From Rhodothermus sp. (GTDB taxonomy: Bacteria > Bacteroidota > Rhodothermia > Rhodothermales > Rhodothermaceae): a stretch of DNA of 50,652 bases. Location: NCBI GenBank assembly GCA_030950375.1, contig JAUZRN010000001.1, positions 1-50,652 of the forward strand, given 5' to 3'. The notes beneath the pieces were generated by a model that was given only the letters and a program-made list of their open reading frames with translations, was not told where the DNA came from and made no database searches. Within the stretch, counting starts at the first letter, position 1. Each line of letters starts with the position of its first letter. Below, one piece after another: positions 25,605-34,136 of the stretch. The position numbers and the translations under genes were made by a program.

Positions 25605-26349
25605 GATTTTTAAGCTTTTTAAGCAATTATTTTTTTAATTTCTTTGATTATATTATTAATACCTTTTCTATTATTAAGCAATTCTTTTATAAAACTTACT
25701 ATTTCAGCTGCAGCCTCGCTTCCCATCTTCTCTTGGAATTTATGTTTAATAAATTCCAACAAGAAATTCTTAAGAGAAAAATTTTCTCTAATTTTTATTC
25801 CCTCTTCTCTTAATTTTTCATAAATTTCTTTCTTATAATCTTCTTCTATATAATGATCTATCAAAGAAGTTATTGCATTAACAGATATTCTTATCAAATA
25901 TGGAGAAAAAGATCCATCAGTTGCATAACCAAGTTTTTTTAGTTTAAAACGCAAATGATCGATAACTAAGGGATTTTCTATCTGCAAAACAAATAAGTCT
26001 CCTTGTTTTTGAATAACAGGAGATTTTAGAGCTTCTTTAACTTCATTATCCAGATCTTCTTGATTCAACCGCCTCAACTCATGATTATACAACAGAGTTC
26101 TTGCTTTTGAACTTGTTATGCGTAAACGTTGAACCAGTGAATATACACTTGGATTTTCTTCTATATATCCTATTGTTTTTAAGATATCAAAAATAAGCAA
26201 ATCAATGTCACGCTTTAACAATGAACCAAAAGAAGGTCTTAAATAATTTTCTAGTAAAATTCTAAGAGCTTCTCTACATTTACTTTCTTCAATATTTTCT
26301 ATTACTTTTCTAATATCTTCATTCATACCACACACAATCTTTTAGTTCA
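25605..26349. other. AT-rich island of about 745 bp
   Basis: The DNA between the start of mtnA and the stop of the PorV-like gene drops to roughly a quarter to 30 percent G+C by eye, against roughly 60 percent on both sides, with sharp edges at both gene ends. It carries a single gene. I looked for flanking direct or inverted repeats, a tRNA, or transposase remnants and saw none. Most likely acquired by horizontal transfer and fitted between two existing genes. Confidence 0.75.
25619..26326 (-). CDS. Unknown protein encoded in the AT-rich island
   Basis: 235 residues from ATG 26326 (MNEDIRKVIE); a GTG at 26335 would add three residues. I do not recognise a family. The protein is mostly helical and rich in Lys, Glu, Ile and Leu. 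Residues about 60-95 (SVYSLVQRLRITSSKARTLLYN) could form a helix-turn-helix. There is no membrane segment, signal peptide or catalytic motif. Codon use (AAA, ATA, AGA, TTA) is unlike all neighbours. The frame is uninterrupted despite the composition, which argues for a real gene. It lies 24 bp after the PorV-like stop and 14 bp before the mtnA start on the same strand, so it would be read through with them. No strong ribosome binding site. Confidence 0.75.
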   Translation of the reverse strand: MNEDIRKVIENIEESKCREALRILLENYLRPSFGSLLKRDIDLLIFDILKTIGYIEENPSVYSLVQRLRITSSKARTLLYNHELRRLNQEDLDNEVKEALKSPVIQKQGDLFVLQIENPLVIDHLRFKLKKLGYATDGSFSPYLIRISVNAITSLIDHYIEEDYKKEIYEKLREEGIKIRENFSLKNFLLEFIKHKFQEKMGSEAAAEIVSFIKELLNNRKGINNIIKEIKKIIA

Positions 26350-27486
26350 TCAAACGTCCGGACGGTGCCAGCTATCCCGGACCAGCACAAAACGCACGGC
26401 CAGCCGATGCGCAAAGCCCAGCTCCGAAGCCAGTCCGGCAAAGTCGCCAAAGCTATAGTCGACGGTCAGATACCGAAGGCGTATGCCAGCCCCCACGGTC
26501 GGTGTCAGTTCCAGCCCGAAGCGATCGGAGTAGGCCAGCCGGTTGATCCCCCCCCGGAGCGCCACCACTTCCCGATACCAGAACTCGGCGCCCAGCCGGG
26601 GATGCAGCGACACATCGCCCACATTGAAGGCATAGGCCCGCTGACCGTCGAAGGCTACGTCCACATCAAGCGCCAGCACCAACCGATGCAGGCCCAGTGG
26701 CTGTTCGTAAGCGAGGCCCGTACGAAGTACCGGCAGCACCAGATAGGTACCGCCTTTCGGCAGCTCCTGGCCGAACGCTTCTTCAAAGGTATAGGGCTGG
26801 CCGGTGTCCGGATTGATCGTCTCCAGCGCGAACGCGTCGGCATTGATACTCCAGCTCTGGAGCATCGTCGAAAGGTCCTGCACGTTCACGCCCAGCCAGA
26901 AACGGCCCAGCCGGTAGCGGACGCCGGCATCTACACTGTAGCCCCAGGCCTCGGCAAAGTCGCCGATTGCCCGACGCACCACCTTGGCCGAAAGGCCTAC
27001 GGTCAGGTCTTCCCCCAGCAGGCGCGCATAGCTGAAGTAAAACGCATAATCGACCGCCGAGAACGTTTCGATGAACGCCTCGGCCTGCGGCCGGGGTCGA
27101 TTGCGTACCGGATCCCAGGCATTCAGGGTGTTTTTGATGTCGTTGACCCCACTTCGGAAAAAGGCGATGCCCAGGGTCGAACGTGCGCTGAGGGGCCAGG
27201 CCAACGCCGCATAGTCGAACGACACGATCCCGGCAAAGCGCTCGGCATGCATATAGGCCACCTCGGGATAAGCCAGCCCGCTTAAGCCGGCCGGATTCCA
27301 GTAGGTGGCATCCACATCGGTGGCCAGCGCCACATAAGCGCCTCCCATCCCGAGCGCCCGTCCACCGACGCCACCGGCCAGAAAGTCGGCCCCGTACTTG
27401 GCAATCCGCTGGCCGACGGCCGGCAGCCCCAGCCAGCTCCACCCGATCAGCAGCCAGAGGGCCGCCCATTTTCCAGCAATGAACAT
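26350..27486 (-). CDS. PorV/PorQ-family outer membrane protein
   Basis: 378 residues from ATG 27486 (MFIAGKWAALWLLIGW), giving a signal peptide that ends near AVGQ; the open frame runs to 27564 but the extra residues are basic and unlike a signal. The mature start YGADFLAGGVGGRALGMGGAYVALATDVDATYWNPAGLSGL is the hallmark of the PorV/PorQ family (UPF0164-like), followed by alternating beta strands of a FadL-like barrel, closing with LAVRFVLVRDSW. In Bacteroidota PorV and PorQ serve the type IX secretion system; no other T9SS gene is in view, so the specific role is open. Divergent from the methyltransferase gene with a 131-bp shared upstream region. Confidence 0.87.
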   Translation of the reverse strand: MFIAGKWAALWLLIGWSWLGLPAVGQRIAKYGADFLAGGVGGRALGMGGAYVALATDVDATYWNPAGLSGLAYPEVAYMHAERFAGIVSFDYAALAWPLSARSTLGIAFFRSGVNDIKNTLNAWDPVRNRPRPQAEAFIETFSAVDYAFYFSYARLLGEDLTVGLSAKVVRRAIGDFAEAWGYSVDAGVRYRLGRFWLGVNVQDLSTMLQSWSINADAFALETINPDTGQPYTFEEAFGQELPKGGTYLVLPVLRTGLAYEQPLGLHRLVLALDVDVAFDGQRAYAFNVGDVSLHPRLGAEFWYREVVALRGGINRLAYSDRFGLELTPTVGAGIRLRYLTVDYSFGDFAGLASELGFAHRLAVRFVLVRDSWHRPDV

Positions 27487-27617
27487 GCGTAGCAGCTCTG
27501 CGTTGATGGTGGTTTGCTGTAACCGACGATCACGGTATCGGCCCGTAAGTGACTGGAATAACAAAAATCCAACCGGCTGGCGCTTTCCCCGTTCCCGTCG
27601 ATACTCAACGGTGGCCT

Positions 27618-28820
27618 ATGCGTGTCATACTCAAACCCGGCAAAGATAAGTTGTTGCGTCGCGGCTATCCCTGGGTGTTTGCCAACCAGCTCCATCGCAT
27701 CGAAGGCCGGCCGCGCACCGGTGACGTGGTCGAAATCGCTGCCGCCGACGGCACCGTGTATGGCCTGGGATTCTATCACGAGCACTCCCAGATCGCCGTA
27801 CGTTTTCTCACGCCCGATCCCCACGCTACCATCAATGCCGATTTTTTTCGGCAACGGCTGCAGCGAGCTTTTCTGCTGCGTCAGGCGGCCTTTGGGGACA
27901 GTACGCACTATCGCCTTGTCTTTAGTGAGAGCGATGGCCTACCCGGTACGATTATCGATCGCTACGGCGAAGTGCTGACCTGGACCTGCCTCTGCTACGG
28001 CATGGAACAGCGCCGGGAGCTGCTGCTGGATCTGCTGGAAGAGCTGTTTCGACCGCGGGCCATCGTCGAACGCAACGACAACGCCCTGCGCGCAAAAGAC
28101 GGTCTGCCTCAGCAACGCGGTATCCTGCGCGGTCACTACAACGGTCCGGTAGAGATCATCGAAGAAGGCGTGCGCTTCCACGTAGACGTGCTCGAAGGAC
28201 TGAAAACCGGCTTCTTTCTGGATCAACGACTGCATCGCCCCGTTGTGGCCCGGCTGGCCCGGAATCGCCGTGTACTCGATGTATTTGCAGCCGATGGAGG
28301 CTTCGGACTGATGGCTGCCGCATACGGAGCTGCCCACGTACACCTGCTTGACGTTTCCCAGACAGCAATGGAGCGGGCTCAAGCCAACGCGCGCCTGAAT
28401 GGCCTGGACCGGGCCCGCCTGACCTTCGACGTGGCCAATGCCCTGGACCGGCTGGGTGAGCTCGTCGCACAGGGTGCGACCTACGACCTGATCGTGCTCG
28501 ATCCTCCGGCCTTTGCCAAAAGTAAACGGCATCTGAACGACGCCCGCCGGGCCTACCAGCGGATCAATATCAGTGCGCTACGTCTCCTACCGCCCGGAGG
28601 GCTCCTGGCTACGGCCTCCTGTTCGCAGGCCCTCGACGAGGTCGAATTTCGGAAGATCATTCATTACAGCGCCCGCCGAGCTGGCTGTGCCCTGCGGCTT
28701 CTCTACCGCGGCACGCAGCCGCCCGATCACCCGGTCCTGGAAGCTATGCCTGAAACGCACTATCTCAAGTTCTTCATTTTTCAGAAACTGACCGACGAAG
28801 CCCCACCGGTACGGCAATGA
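27618..28820 (+). CDS. RlmI-like class I SAM-dependent rRNA cytosine methyltransferase
   Basis: 400 residues from ATG 27618 (MRVILKPGKDK) with GGTGG a few bases upstream; the frame extends to 27549 but the family begins at this Met. An N-terminal PUA-like domain (RRGYPWVFANQLHRIEG, GDVVEIAAADGTVYGLGFY) is followed by YRLVFSESDGLPGTIIDRYG and a Rossmann methyltransferase domain: DVFAADGGFGLMAAAYGA, VLDPPAFAKSK, TASCSQALDEVEF (catalytic Cys). RlmI makes m5C1962 in 23S rRNA; the exact site here is assumed from the family. One of the few plus-strand genes. It converges with the thioredoxin-like gene, the stops being 9 bp apart. Confidence 0.92.
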   Translation: MRVILKPGKDKLLRRGYPWVFANQLHRIEGRPRTGDVVEIAAADGTVYGLGFYHEHSQIAVRFLTPDPHATINADFFRQRLQRAFLLRQAAFGDSTHYRLVFSESDGLPGTIIDRYGEVLTWTCLCYGMEQRRELLLDLLEELFRPRAIVERNDNALRAKDGLPQQRGILRGHYNGPVEIIEEGVRFHVDVLEGLKTGFFLDQRLHRPVVARLARNRRVLDVFAADGGFGLMAAAYGAAHVHLLDVSQTAMERAQANARLNGLDRARLTFDVANALDRLGELVAQGATYDLIVLDPPAFAKSKRHLNDARRAYQRINISALRLLPPGGLLATASCSQALDEVEFRKIIHYSARRAGCALRLLYRGTQPPDHPVLEAMPETHYLKFFIFQKLTDEAPPVRQ

Positions 28821-28829
28821 ATGGTCCCG

Positions 28830-29315
28830 CTAACATAACCACGGGACTTTTCCAGCGCAGTCGCTGATCAGCGACTCCTGTGCGTACTTTCTATCCGGAA
28901 GCGGCATTCCTGCTGCAACCCATCGCCGAATTGCCTGTACCCCGACCTGCCGCAACAAGAAATGTACACGCATCCCGTCCTGATGCAACAGGACAACCTG
29001 CGGCGTAGCGCGAATGCCGGGCGCCACCGTCTGTAGATAATGCATCGGCAAGCTATACCAGCGAGCTCCGGTAGCAACCTCGTGAAAAGGCCCCATTTTA
29101 CGCAGATGATCCAGCCCCATTCGCACGTTCCGGCTTATTGCCACCCCTACCATCCGAAAGGCCAGACCCTGCGCACGCGCTTTTTTCGGCAGCTCCTTAC
29201 GGATCCGATTCAGCAAGTCGAGCAACTCCGGATCATTCGAGGGGCCACAGGTAGGGGATCCGAGGTACACCAGAGCAATACGTCCGTCTCGTTTCCCGTC
29301 TGGAGTTGTTGCCAT
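28830..29315 (-). CDS. Thioredoxin-fold protein, probably the -1 frame part of a tethered protein
   Basis: 161 residues if started at its own ATG (29315), which has no ribosome binding site. The segment RIALVYLGSPTCGPSNDPEL looks like the first strand and active-site turn of a thioredoxin fold with a single-Cys CGPS site, and IRATPQVVLLHQDGMRVHFL carries the cis-proline (TPQ). The first eight residues overlap another reading frame that encodes a membrane anchor; a -1 slip at GGGAAAC (29297 to 29291) would join the two into a 194-residue protein. The single-Cys site suggests a reductase using monothiol chemistry or a binding role. It is the last gene of the beta-propeller cluster. It could also be read from a simple reinitiation. 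Confidence 0.75.
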   Translation of the reverse strand: MATTPDGKRDGRIALVYLGSPTCGPSNDPELLDLLNRIRKELPKKARAQGLAFRMVGVAISRNVRMGLDHLRKMGPFHEVATGARWYSLPMHYLQTVAPGIRATPQVVLLHQDGMRVHFLLRQVGVQAIRRWVAAGMPLPDRKYAQESLISDCAGKVPWLC

Positions 29316-29413
29316 GTATCCGGACGCAGTTTATGGTAATAGAGAAAACTTGCCCATCCCAGCAGCAGTCCACTGCATACCAGCAAAGCGTCTCGTATTG
29401 CGTTCACGGTCAT
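29210..29413 (-). CDS. Membrane-anchor reading frame upstream of the thioredoxin-fold frame
   Basis: 67 residues in the zero frame. Its ATG (29413) overlaps the TGA of the upstream beta-propeller gene as ATGA, a strong sign that translation starts here. Residues 8-27 (DALLVCSGLLLGWASFLYYH) form a membrane helix or uncleaved signal anchor, then HKLRPDTWQQLQT. Codons 40-41 (GGA AAC) lie in G_GGA_AAC, a canonical X_XXY_YYZ slippery heptamer. Without a slip the product ends after a short meaningless tail at 29210; with a -1 slip it runs on into the thioredoxin fold. A plain frameshift mutation or sequence error is the alternative. Confidence 0.6.
   Translation of the reverse strand: MTVNAIRDALLVCSGLLLGWASFLYYHKLRPDTWQQLQTGNETDVLLWCTSDPLPVAPRMIRSCSTC
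29291..29297 (-). other. Candidate -1 frameshift slippery heptamer GGGAAAC
   Basis: Read in the frame set by ATG 29413 the heptamer is G GGA AAC; after a -1 slip the tRNAs read GGG AAA and continue CGA GAC GGA CGT, which is exactly the frame of the thioredoxin fold. An imperfect stem (CTCGGATC with GATCCGGAG) lies about 26 bases downstream, further than the usual 5-9 bases for a stimulator. Position and frame relations are seen; function is inferred. Confidence 0.45.
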
Positions 29414-30588
29414 CGCGCTATGGCAAGCGGTATGTCTGCTGGTAGCTGAAACAGCGCCACATGAGGTAGTCTCGCCTCCATAGAGGTCCCCAACCACAGA
29501 CGTCCCCGACGGTCATATAGCTGTCGAAAAGGCAGCGAGGCCTCCAGCCAGCCCCAGTGCTGCAGATCAGGACTGATCCAGAAAATGTAGGTCCGTTCTT
29601 GATCGATGATGGTAGGCTGATCGCGCCGCATCACCTGTTCAACCACATGCAGCACGATCACCCCTGATGGCAAGACCACGACATTCCGAAAACGGATGCC
29701 GCGAGAGCGCAAGATGGGCTCAATGATTGCCCCCTGTATGCGATGGGCCAGTAGCGGGACCTCATCCAGACGCAGACGCCAGCGGCGCCGGCCATCGGTG
29801 GTATAGCATTCTACAACGGGAAGGTATCGATAGGCCAGAATCAGGCCTGCGTGATCTGGATCGCAGAACAGCCGGGCTTCCAGCATGATCGGCGGGGTTC
29901 CCTCCGGCAGTCCTTTCCGTGGATAAAAATCCAGCAGGCCGAAAGCCCGCACGTGCTCGCCGTCCAGCGTCAGCACATGGAGCCGGGGCTGCTCCCACCA
30001 GTTGAGCGGGTTGGCATATACATACAACGTATCCTGCATCAGGCATGCGCCCAGCACTTCGCCGTTTAAGACTGTGCGCAGTTCATAGGTGCGGTCCCAC
30101 ATAAACGTGTCGTTTCTTTTCAGGAACCGGTGCACCCGCCCACTGCTCCGCTCCACCACGTAAAGACGTCCCTGCCGATCGAAGGCGGCATACAGTGGAG
30201 GCGCCAGAAACTCGCCGGGACCTTCCCCCTGACGTCCCAGTCTGAAACGGAACTGGCCGGTCTGAGCAAAAAAAAGCAGGGCGTAGTTCTCCTGATCCAC
30301 CACAACCAGCTCGCCAGCAGGATCAAATGCAGCATAAACGACCCGACCAAAAAAATATGCCGGCGGCTGCGCCTCCCGAGCTCCCAGTAAAAGCAGCGAT
30401 TCCATCTGCGACAGCGCCGCCACTTCTGGCCACACGGCCGACGTAGACTGCCGGTCCGCCGCTCGCGTCAGCACCAGATCAAACCTCCCCTGCCACTGAT
30501 CCAGTAAGGGGTAGATCTGGGCCTCCTGCGATGCAGGAGGTTGACAGCCTATCCAACCTACTACCAGAACAATCCATATCTTTCTCAT
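29410..30588 (-). CDS. Six-bladed beta-propeller lipoprotein 1
   Basis: 392 residues with a lipoprotein signal ending GWIGC (Cys15). Repeated blade motifs are visible: VVYAAFDPAGELVVVDQENYALLFF, then the signature RLGRQGEGPGEFLAPPLYAAF, and DRQGRLYVVERSSGRVHRF. RQGEGPGEF/Y is characteristic of the six-bladed beta-propeller (BF3164/DUF4934-like) proteins of Bacteroidota, whose function is not known; some are surface lipoproteins. It follows the second propeller by 5 bp and its stop overlaps the start of the membrane-anchor frame. GC content is like the chromosome throughout. Confidence 0.85.
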   Translation of the reverse strand: MRKIWIVLVVGWIGCQPPASQEAQIYPLLDQWQGRFDLVLTRAADRQSTSAVWPEVAALSQMESLLLLGAREAQPPAYFFGRVVYAAFDPAGELVVVDQENYALLFFAQTGQFRFRLGRQGEGPGEFLAPPLYAAFDRQGRLYVVERSSGRVHRFLKRNDTFMWDRTYELRTVLNGEVLGACLMQDTLYVYANPLNWWEQPRLHVLTLDGEHVRAFGLLDFYPRKGLPEGTPPIMLEARLFCDPDHAGLILAYRYLPVVECYTTDGRRRWRLRLDEVPLLAHRIQGAIIEPILRSRGIRFRNVVVLPSGVIVLHVVEQVMRRDQPTIIDQERTYIFWISPDLQHWGWLEASLPFRQLYDRRGRLWLGTSMEARLPHVALFQLPADIPLAIAR

Positions 30589-30593
30589 ACTCG

Positions 30594-31796
30594 CTATGGC
30601 TCTTTTTCCGGAAGCACATAATAAGCAATGTGCGGGATCTCTTGTCGATACATATCCCAGCGATATCCTACCAGTATGGAATCTCTATAAGCCTCTACCA
30701 CAGCAAAAGGATAATTTTCCAGATTCAACAACATAGCTTTCTTATTATTCAGATTTATCAAATAGGCTATCGGATATTTCCGAAGGACTTTTCCTCGCTC
30801 CGCTTCATATCTAACAAAAGCATACAGCAAGATCTCATCTGACAAAAACGTAATCCCTGAAGGCTTATCCAGCTTTCCAGAATATGAAAACTCCTTGATG
30901 AATACTTCCGAAGGAAAATAGCGCGCTCGACTATTTCCTTTCATAAGAAACGGCTGCAACACGATATGCTTCAGAAAAACATGATGTACATTACTATTAT
31001 TACTAAACAGAACATCTATAATCGGATAATAAAGAAAAGCTCCTACCACATGTTTAGATCCACACGCCACAAATGCCCGATGCACTAATAAATTAAGAAA
31101 CCTTTCCTTTTCTTCTACCATATAATGTCTATGATTATCCATATTTAGAATACGACTATTTATGATATCAACTTTATAAAATAAAGGATCATCAAAGGAG
31201 TAGTAAGGCGGTTTATTAATCACAATATACCTTTCATTTTGCAAACATACATAATCCAGACCTGGGATTCTTTCAGGCAAATCCAGAATTCTCTTAAATG
31301 TATACCCCTCTTCACTTTTATAATAGACAACAAAAAATCCTCTCGAGTTATCATATACATACAATGAATCATTGCTACCTATTAACAGGTATCCTGCCTG
31401 CATGTATTCGCCCGGTCCCTCTCCCTGCCTTCCTACGACCTCTACAAACTGCCCCGACCGGTCGTAAAGACGTACTTCCTGATTGTCAAAATCCAGCACA
31501 ATGATGCCTCCTTCGCTATCGATGACCACATCCAAGATGTCCCCAAACATATCGTATCGATTGGCCGAAGCCAACGCGCCACGCTGCCAGTGCAGCCGGG
31601 CCTGCTGTAACCGCTTTGCCCACCGGTGCAATACCGAATCGCCCTGATCTGCTTCCGTAACGATCCAGTCGAACGTACGTAGATCTGCCAGACGCTCCGG
31701 ATTGGGATGAAACTCCTGTCCCTTTCCCGGACGGGCACTGTCACGCCCCGCACACCCTCCACCCAGCAACAGCAACACCACCCAGAAACCAATCAC
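30594..31796 (-). CDS. Six-bladed beta-propeller lipoprotein 2 with a mosaic GC content
   Basis: 400 residues from GTG 31796, which gives a compact lipoprotein signal ending LLGGGC (Cys15) and GGGAG upstream; the open frame extends to 31985 but would run through the preceding peptide gene. Blade motifs: DILDVVIDSEGGIIVLDFDN, EVVGRQGEGPGEYMQAGYLL and SNDSLYVYDNSRGFFVVYY. It shares length, lipobox position and the RQGEGPGE signature with propeller 1, so they are paralogues. The part encoding the C-terminal two thirds (about 30600-31390) is very AT-rich, the N-terminal third GC-rich. Starts 7 bp after the first peptide gene. Confidence 0.82.
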   Translation of the reverse strand: MIGFWVVLLLLGGGCAGRDSARPGKGQEFHPNPERLADLRTFDWIVTEADQGDSVLHRWAKRLQQARLHWQRGALASANRYDMFGDILDVVIDSEGGIIVLDFDNQEVRLYDRSGQFVEVVGRQGEGPGEYMQAGYLLIGSNDSLYVYDNSRGFFVVYYKSEEGYTFKRILDLPERIPGLDYVCLQNERYIVINKPPYYSFDDPLFYKVDIINSRILNMDNHRHYMVEEKERFLNLLVHRAFVACGSKHVVGAFLYYPIIDVLFSNNSNVHHVFLKHIVLQPFLMKGNSRARYFPSEVFIKEFSYSGKLDKPSGITFLSDEILLYAFVRYEAERGKVLRKYPIAYLINLNNKKAMLLNLENYPFAVVEAYRDSILVGYRWDMYRQEIPHIAYYVLPEKEP

Positions 31797-31803
31797 CCAC
31801 CAC

Positions 31804-32025
31804 CTACTCCCATGCCACCACACCACAGCTATATGTCTCACACCCACCACCACTTTTCGCATCGCACCCCGTAGGCGTCTCAGCATCCTGGCATTGATCA
31901 TACACGCAGGCATCATACTCACAGTGTACCGCCTGAACATAGCGCGGCGGCATCCAGAGGCCTCCGATAAACGCAAGTAACGCAAATAGAAAGAGTACGA
32001 TCACAAAGATACGTCCTGCCTTCAT
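31804..32025 (-). CDS. Small exported six-cysteine peptide 1
   Basis: 73 residues from ATG 32025 (MKAGRIFVIVLFLFALLAFIGG), a clear signal peptide or anchor, then a 45-residue domain with six cysteines spaced Cx4C-x4-C-x8-C-x7-C-x4-C. Tyrosine- and aspartate-rich, with no homology I can name. The even number and tight spacing suggest three disulfides in an exported peptide. It resembles in plan the small cysteine-rich peptides (such as NVEALA proteins) that accompany six-bladed propeller genes in Bacteroidota, but the NVEALA signature is absent. It sits 28 bp after peptide 2 and 7 bp before propeller 2. Confidence 0.7.
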   Translation of the reverse strand: MKAGRIFVIVLFLFALLAFIGGLWMPPRYVQAVHCEYDACVYDQCQDAETPTGCDAKSGGGCETYSCGVVAWE

Positions 32026-32053
32026 GGCTTCATTTCTCTGGCTCCCTGAGGGT

Positions 32054-32281
32054 TCATTCCGGGTTATCACAATTCTCCGTGCGGCACAAGCCCCCATACA
32101 TCAAGCAGTTGGTCGCATAAAACGAGGTATCCTTACAGATACCCAGATACTGATCTTCTGACTGCGCCAATTCGCAGACGTCGTTCTCACAGAAAGGATG
32201 ACTGTGCAAATTTGCAGGTAGCCAGAGCGCTCCGGCCAGCAATCCCGCGGCAACAAGCAGATAGCCCAGTGCTCGCTTCAT
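32054..32281 (-). CDS. Small exported six-cysteine peptide 2
   Basis: 75 residues from ATG 32281 (MKRALGYLLVAAGLLAGALW), with AAGAG shortly upstream. A signal peptide or anchor is followed by six cysteines spaced Cx4C-x12-C-x9-C-x6-C-x4-C. It begins and ends with Cx4C like peptide 1, with the same length and position after the signal, so the two are probably diverged duplicates. First gene of the cluster peptide 2, peptide 1, propeller 2, propeller 1, anchor/thioredoxin fold. Function unknown; a disulfide-rich secreted ligand or structural peptide is a guess. Confidence 0.7.
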   Translation of the reverse strand: MKRALGYLLVAAGLLAGALWLPANLHSHPFCENDVCELAQSEDQYLGICKDTSFYATNCLMYGGLCRTENCDNPE

Positions 32282-32633: not shown

Positions 32634-34136
32634 TCAGGGCATCAGCGCCGTGGTAGCTGCTGGAGGGGCAGCCGGCATCGGGAAAAACGAAGCGGTTACC
32701 TCCAGTAGACCGGGCAATATGCCCAGCACAACAATCAGCACTACACACACCACCAGGGCTGCCCGTGGGGCCAGCGGTACCGGGAACGTCTGCTGCCGTA
32801 CCGCCTCAGGGGCTTCGTCAGGCGACCGCATCCAGAAAACGTAAACCACCCGCAGGTAGTAGTAGGCCGAAAGTACGCTGGCTAACACTCCTACCACAAC
32901 CAGCCACGTCAATCCCGCCTTCACGGCCGGCGCAAAGACGGCGTACTTGGCAATGAACCCGGCCAAGGGCGGAAAGCCAGTCAGGCTGAACATGAAAAAC
33001 GCCATGGCCACGCCCAGTAACGGACGTCGGTATCCGATGCCCGCCAGCGAATCTACGGTCTGCCTGTACCCTTCTTTGCCATCCCACTCCAGAAAAGCCA
33101 TCACTCCGAAGGCGCCGATGTTCATCAGGGCATAGACCAGTAGGTAGAACAGGGCACCGGCATACCCTTCAGCGGTACCGGCCGCCAGCCCTGTCAGGAT
33201 ATAGCCAGCGTGCGCAATTGATGAGTAGGCCAGCATGCGCTTGACGTTCTGCTGCACCAGGGCGAGCACATTGCCGACCACCATCGTCACCAGCGCTACC
33301 AGCGCCAGCAGCAATTGCCAGCGTTCGGCCGGCAGCGCCGCATCCAGCACCAGCACCAGCGCTGCAAAAGCCGCCGCCTTCGAAGCCGCCGCCATGTATC
33401 CCGTTAGCGTTGTCGGCGCCCCCTGATATACGTCAGGTGTCCACATGTGGAACGGCACAGCGCCCACCTTGAACAGGAAGCCAATCAGCAACAAGGCCAC
33501 CCCGGCCCAGAACATGATCGGATGGGCCCCCTCCGTCAGATGTGCCGCCATCTGCGGCAGATACATGGTACCTGTAGCCCCGTAGAGCAGCGCAATGCCG
33601 TACAGGAAAAAGCCCGTCGAGAAAGCTCCCAGCAGAAAGTACTTCAACGCCGCTTCGCCCGCTCCGACATCTTCGCGGACCAGACCCGTCATGATGTACA
33701 GGCAGATCGACATGGTTTCCAGGCCCACGAAGATCGAAATCAGGCTGTTGGCCGAGGCCAGCACGATCATCCCTACCGTGGCAAACAGAATCAGGGCATA
33801 AACCTCGCCATGCAGGTGGCGGATACGTTTCAGATAAGGCACCGACAGCGCAATCGTCAATAGGCCGCTGGCCAGCACAATGGCGTTCACGAACGAAGCC
33901 ATGCCGCCTACCCGAATCAACCCGTAGAAGGCTGTCTCCGGAGGACGACTCAATCCGCCCAGCTCCCAAAGCAATGCCAGTGCCAGCGTGCCGGCTGCAA
34001 TCCAGGGAATCGCTGGAGCGTCGTTCCAGAAGGCATCCCAGACGACCAGCACCAGACCCACGACGGCTGTCAACACCAGCGGAAAGGCCGCCCACAGGTC
34101 GGCCGGAAGCATTCGGTACGCTTCCAGTAGATCCAT
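32634..34136 (-). CDS. nuoN: NADH-quinone oxidoreductase subunit N
   Basis: 500 residues, about 14 membrane helices. Antiporter-like proton-pumping subunit of the complex I membrane arm. Recognised by VGLETMSICLYIMTGL, EAALKYFLLGAFSTGFFLYGIALLYGATG, the FKVGAVPFHMWTPDVYQGAPT segment with the conserved Lys, KRMLAYSSIAHAGY, and FMFSLTGFPPLAGFIAKY. Last gene of the operon, 30 bp after the pterin dehydratase. Normal length and all conserved features present. Confidence 0.97.
   Translation of the reverse strand: MDLLEAYRMLPADLWAAFPLVLTAVVGLVLVVWDAFWNDAPAIPWIAAGTLALALLWELGGLSRPPETAFYGLIRVGGMASFVNAIVLASGLLTIALSVPYLKRIRHLHGEVYALILFATVGMIVLASANSLISIFVGLETMSICLYIMTGLVREDVGAGEAALKYFLLGAFSTGFFLYGIALLYGATGTMYLPQMAAHLTEGAHPIMFWAGVALLLIGFLFKVGAVPFHMWTPDVYQGAPTTLTGYMAAASKAAAFAALVLVLDAALPAERWQLLLALVALVTMVVGNVLALVQQNVKRMLAYSSIAHAGYILTGLAAGTAEGYAGALFYLLVYALMNIGAFGVMAFLEWDGKEGYRQTVDSLAGIGYRRPLLGVAMAFFMFSLTGFPPLAGFIAKYAVFAPAVKAGLTWLVVVGVLASVLSAYYYLRVVYVFWMRSPDEAPEAVRQQTFPVPLAPRAALVVCVVLIVVLGILPGLLEVTASFFPMPAAPPAATTALMP

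Follow-up and report, generated by a model that had tools for sequence, protein, structure and literature searches.

The minus strand of the window (the whole stretch of 50,652 nucleotides from Rhodothermus sp. analyzed here) carries a conserved, apparently undescribed five-gene cassette, which encodes two predicted exported peptides with six cysteines each, two β-propellers that are probably lipoproteins, and a membrane-anchored thioredoxin-like (Trx) protein; a literature search found no description of the cassette. The genes lie in the order pepA, pepB, propeller 1, propeller 2, Trx-like gene (Table 1), flanked by nuoN (ending at 32634) and rlmI (ending at 28820, opposite strand), and they are as tightly packed as the sequence-only reading of this region had claimed. 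Our preferred reading, which is tentative and which we hold at a little short of an even chance, is that of an accessory cassette for the envelope, producing a disulfide-rich peptide and a partner propeller, with a monothiol isomerase/holdase to serve them.

Table 1. Genes of the cassette and their positions in the window
Feature	Position	Strand	Description
pepA	32054..32281	-	predicted exported peptide; precursor ~75 aa; mature form ~HPFCENDVC...CDNPE; six Cys
pepB	31804..32025	-	pepA paralogue, predicted exported; precursor 73 aa; mature form ~VHCEYDAC...CGVVAWE; six Cys
propeller 1	30594..31820	-	six-bladed NHL/PF17170-type, probable lipoprotein; near-invariant C192 and C253
propeller 2	29410..30588	-	PF17170-type propeller, probable lipoprotein
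Trx-like gene, first frame	29210..29413	-	membrane anchor (MTVNAIRDALLVCSGLLLGWASFLYYHKLRPD...); departs from the Trx domain at ~29273
Trx-like gene, second frame	28830..29315	-	thioredoxin-like domain, SPTCGPSN (CxxS), cis-Pro ATPQ

With the orthologous locus of a congener (L068) as reference, dN/dS is ~0.15-0.18 for pepA, pepB, propeller 1, and propeller 2; thus, these four are not chance reading frames. No known RNA element was found, and a promoter and terminator scan showed no excess over shuffled sequences. Elsewhere in the window lie a 238-aa lysine-rich reading frame in an island of 31-32% GC (25619-26335; no convincing Pfam match) and, at 26350-27564, a putative type IX sorting protein resembling PorV2 (NF052325, E 3.7e-77, below cut-off).

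Both peptides begin with a short charged segment, run on through a hydrophobic stretch, and end in a tail rich in cysteine, which bears out the earlier description of six cysteines behind a signal-peptide-like N terminus; the overall pattern is a signal peptide followed by C-E-x-D-x-C...C...C...C...C. Signal peptidase I likely cuts between VQA and VH in pepB and between LHS and HP in pepA, so that the precursors, exported by Sec, would be trimmed to ~40-48 residues (about 41 for pepB and 48 for pepA) with three potential disulfides each. Relative to L068, dN/dS is 0.042/0.236 for pepA and 0.058/0.323 for pepB, and on these sequence comparisons selection against amino-acid change is clear. A single family of 36 aligned members takes in both peptides; in pepB numbering, C35, C40, C45, and C54 are invariant and E36, D38, C62, and C67 nearly so, while the alignment (A3) contains no conserved tryptophan. 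Profile searches with this family found no convincing relative in Pfam, NCBIfam, or the PDB. Membership in the NVEALA family was rejected: none of the 36 peptides matches PF14055 at E ≤ 0.5, the NVEALA motif is absent, and the profile has no match in any genome of the genus, although it does match a Bacteroides control. In members of family f3 (L048, L049/L144) the peptide has eight cysteines, and at L144 the Trx motif is CxxC.

Both propellers score above the PF17170 (DUF5128) cut-off of 22.9 bits (41.2 and 27.9 bits) and carry GRQGEGPGE, confirming the pair described earlier; in the alignment they are ~20% identical. Their N termini resemble lipoprotein signals, and both are probably exported as lipoproteins; read by eye, the lipobox is imperfect in the window propellers and classical in paralogues. 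Propeller 1 overlaps the end of pepB, and its exact start is uncertain. Its model has six blades (pLDDT 91.6, pTM 0.87), and the top Foldseek matches, at E ~1e-11, are the NHL domains of TRIM71, Thin, and Brat together with B. fragilis BF0058, which places the predicted structure in the NHL-type six-bladed fold. Assignment from the DSSP string puts C192 and C253 on the innermost strands of neighboring blades 3 and 4, positions given by the model and the alignment at which the two residues might bond. This cysteine pair occurs in 25 of 26 propellers with both a Trx and a peptide nearby, versus 5 of 60 with neither; the Fisher p is ~1e-15, a value not to be taken literally because the sequences are related. 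The first 300 nt of the propeller 1 gene have 59% GC and the remainder 33-42%, in surroundings of ~60% GC; the drop recurs in the orthologue and in paralogues, whereas propeller 2 remains close to 59%.

The AlphaFold2 model of the Trx-like protein (pLDDT 91.6) combines an N-terminal helix (residues 2-30) with a thioredoxin fold, in which C59 is the predicted active-site cysteine and P141 the cis-proline. The nearest structures are DsbE/TlpA/ResA-type proteins and tryparedoxins, with Sco proteins ranking lower. In profile searches, the window Trx reaches 12.8 bits against Thioredoxin_8 (cut-off 27), the best match of the 32 family members to any Pfam thioredoxin family has E 0.063, and no Pfam or NCBIfam family fits. 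A profile search of the PDB returned a weak match to 1zma, a bacteriocin transport accessory protein, as well as RIG-I-type helicase fragments (E ~1e-3), which cover the C-terminal part only and were taken as spurious. In the 32-member alignment, C59, G93, E115, G119, and P141 are invariant; the position of the resolving cysteine is, by hand count, Ser in 19 sequences, Ala in 4, and Cys in 9, so that the dithiol CxxC of thioredoxin, TlpA, and DsbE is found in 9 of the 32. Copies from the genus have CGPS or CGWS, the window Trx having CGPS, and several of them contain a single cysteine in total. The earlier description of a membrane-anchored redox-like protein stands as to the anchor and the redox domain, and falls as to a single open frame in the window.

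From the invariant cysteine, the variable second position, and the cis-proline we infer an isomerase/holdase role for the Trx-like protein. A CxxS/CxxA active site points to such chemistry rather than to oxidation or reduction, and the chemistry may vary across the family, nine members being CxxC. That the protein would handle the disulfides of its neighbors, as first suggested, has good support in gene linkage, in the invariant nucleophilic cysteine, and in the cysteine pair of the associated propellers; it is catalysis of oxidation or reduction that the active site argues against. Alternatively, the peptides and the pore cysteines of the propeller could bind a soft metal, with the Trx-fold protein as a Sco-like chaperone. 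The conserved C-E-x-D-x-C of the peptides and the Sco proteins among the structural matches are in keeping with metal handling; we rejected a Sco-like copper chaperone for the Trx, however, since a single invariant cysteine and no conserved histidine are unlike the copper sites of Sco, and exported peptides with an even number of cysteines usually form disulfides. Metal handling is improbable enough that we give it little weight.

The window Trx is split over two frames: the ATG at 29413, which overlaps the stop of propeller 2, opens the frame of the anchor, and the redox domain (28893-29285) is read in another. The open frame of L068 has one C more than the window, at ~29273, and no break interrupts the paralogues at L023 and L027 (contigs C7 and C60). 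The missing C may be a draft error or real decay. Trx-like genes with stops or frameshifts were also seen in L021, L028, L070, L138, L141, L159, and L161, and many broken copies adjoin intact-looking peptide and propeller genes. Because these breaks are scattered over the gene, we judged programmed frameshifting unlikely. Since the window copy and several others are broken beside peptides and propellers that look intact, the Trx may be dispensable.

The source genome contains 26 PF17170 matches and the full five-gene order three times, in C1 (the window), C7, and C60; peptide-propeller-Trx sets of shorter form occur at a second site in C60 and in C17, and the edge of C58 holds one more Trx. 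The five-gene order is also present in congeners; among six of these, G003, G005, and G006 have copies of propeller plus Trx, while profile searches found neither Trx nor peptide in G001, G002, and G004. At the site that the cassette occupies in the window, it is absent from G001, where 9 bases separate nuoN from rlmI; in G006 nuoN is followed by the cassette, and G003 has another gene between the two. This patchiness would be in keeping with a system in which the peptides were released bacteriocins or signals, the propeller a matching immunity protein or receptor, and the Trx a folding aid only, and the peptides are moreover small, exported in type, cysteine-rich, and multicopy, with AT-rich propeller genes beside them and, in one member, a very weak similarity (E 0.11) to a fulvocin C-related model. 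On the other hand, we saw no dedicated exporter or modification enzyme in the cassettes, selection on the peptides is purifying instead of diversifying, and the five-gene copies retain two divergent paralogous peptides together; a role in competition or signaling is thus unlikely, though it carries some weight.

Conservation of the neighborhood had been set beforehand as the refutation test of the sequence-only reading, and the reading passes it: the neighborhood is kept in congeners, across further families, and beyond the phylum. The Trx profile matches 25 of 394 genomes of the phylum (14 of 170 genera). The reduced form, one or more peptides followed by propeller and Trx, is also present in further families, both of the order and of the class, and a scan of genome contigs added a Gemmatimonadetes contig on which peptide, propeller, and Trx lie in order. 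At most Trx loci a same-strand upstream propeller ends within ~140 bases of the Trx start or overlaps it, start/stop overlaps being frequent, and a six-cysteine peptide lies directly 5' of the propeller; the exceptions include L143, L153, and L157, with no propeller near the Trx, the first and last of which have CxxC. The peptide profile, in turn, identifies 28 places in 13 of the 394 genomes, and 27 of them have a propeller alongside (26 downstream by script and one, L028, by inspection), with the order rearranged in L132. Trx is also present in 12 of the 13 peptide-bearing genomes, a figure that is partly circular, the peptide profile having been seeded from loci near Trx, and that counts family members which are not phylogenetically independent; the one genome without a detected Trx, G150, has peptide and propeller.

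Propellers are numerous in genomes of the genus, and some adjacency could be accidental, so that the cassette might be a chance or loose neighborhood of unrelated envelope genes. This explanation is hardly credible because the conservation just described contradicts it; furthermore, a cysteine-rich exported-type reading frame lies just upstream of 14 of 54 genus propellers (a count that includes L079, apparently spurious on inspection) and of none of 132 control genes. Several of these upstream peptides belong to other, unrelated families, among them the frames directly before other genus propellers at L082 (5458-5697), L084 (7294-7644), and L029 (43-363). In the source genome, another peptide-propeller cluster, L026 (5214-9023), combines a DsbA-like CAYC protein (Thioredoxin_4, E 2.8e-19), a seven-cysteine exported-type frame, and propellers; that a different Trx-fold protein accompanies this cluster counts in favor of our preferred reading.

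Linkage is what these data establish; the near-obligate pairing at peptide loci suggests that the propellers may bind or present the peptides, as proposed earlier, and that mature peptide and propeller could act as a pair in the envelope. In our preferred reading of a disulfide-rich peptide made with its partner propeller, the helix-anchored Trx would attack wrong disulfides through its single active-site cysteine and, having no resolving cysteine, would serve specific clients as an isomerase/holdase independent of any electron donor. A more specific version has a monothiol isomerase, encoded with its clients and similar in mechanism to AGR2/ERp44, fold the six-cysteine peptides and pass them to the propeller by thiol exchange at the pore cysteine pair, yielding covalent or tightly held envelope complexes; this full sequence of events we regard as distinctly unlikely. 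The cassette adds two families outside Pfam and NCBIfam, offers a testable chemical link (one invariant cysteine in the Trx, six per peptide, and a propeller pair that co-occurs with them), and may be a bacterial example of disulfide handling by a dedicated monothiol protein.

Parts of the cassette recall known systems. Peptide-propeller lipoprotein pairs recur in Bacteroidota-related bacteria, and the NVEALA pairs of Bacteroidales (PF14055 with PF17170/PF15869/DUF4221), repeated within one genome in G256 (L171/L172), likewise place a small exported cysteine peptide before a propeller lipoprotein; our literature search turned up no paper that names NVEALA, DUF5128, or DUF4934. The cassette differs in a peptide that is unrelated by profile and has six cysteines with C-E-x-D-x-C in place of the NVEALA motif, and in its dedicated monothiol Trx. 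TlpA, ResA, and DsbE (CcmG) share the N-terminal anchor and the thioredoxin fold with the cassette Trx, but use CxxC where it mostly has CxxS or CxxA.

The methylamine dehydrogenase cluster (mauA-mauB-mauD) comprises a small disulfide-rich subunit, a propeller subunit, and a dedicated membrane Trx-like factor, a parts list similar in outline, and by analogy the propeller might be the large subunit, the cassette peptide the small, cross-linked one, and the Trx a maturation factor like MauD. This is very improbable: the peptides lack conserved tryptophans for a quinone cofactor, the propeller is NHL-like with six blades rather than seven, no mauE- or mauG-like gene was noticed in the cassettes, and the Trx is mostly without CxxC.

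Closer in architecture is NHLRC2, in which a Trx-like domain sits beside a six-bladed NHL propeller and has its active-site cysteines at the cleft of that propeller (PMC6107167); a Trx-like site can therefore face an NHL propeller. Unlike the cassette, NHLRC2 is one fused chain with a CCINC motif and no peptide, and no conserved operon was found for its bacterial homologues (PMC6107167). In chemistry, the CXXS-type protein disulfide isomerases AGR2, AGR3, and ERp44 resemble the cassette Trx in having a nucleophilic but no resolving cysteine; such proteins, with a narrow client range and isomerase/holdase chemistry, isomerize disulfides, neither oxidizing nor reducing them, and hold their clients longer (PMC12384036). 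These are eukaryotic ER proteins, likened here by mechanism alone, whereas the cassette Trx is predicted to be membrane-tethered and is encoded beside its presumed clients. The cassette is thus a variant of the loosely known peptide-propeller theme, in which the dedicated monothiol partner is the unusual element.
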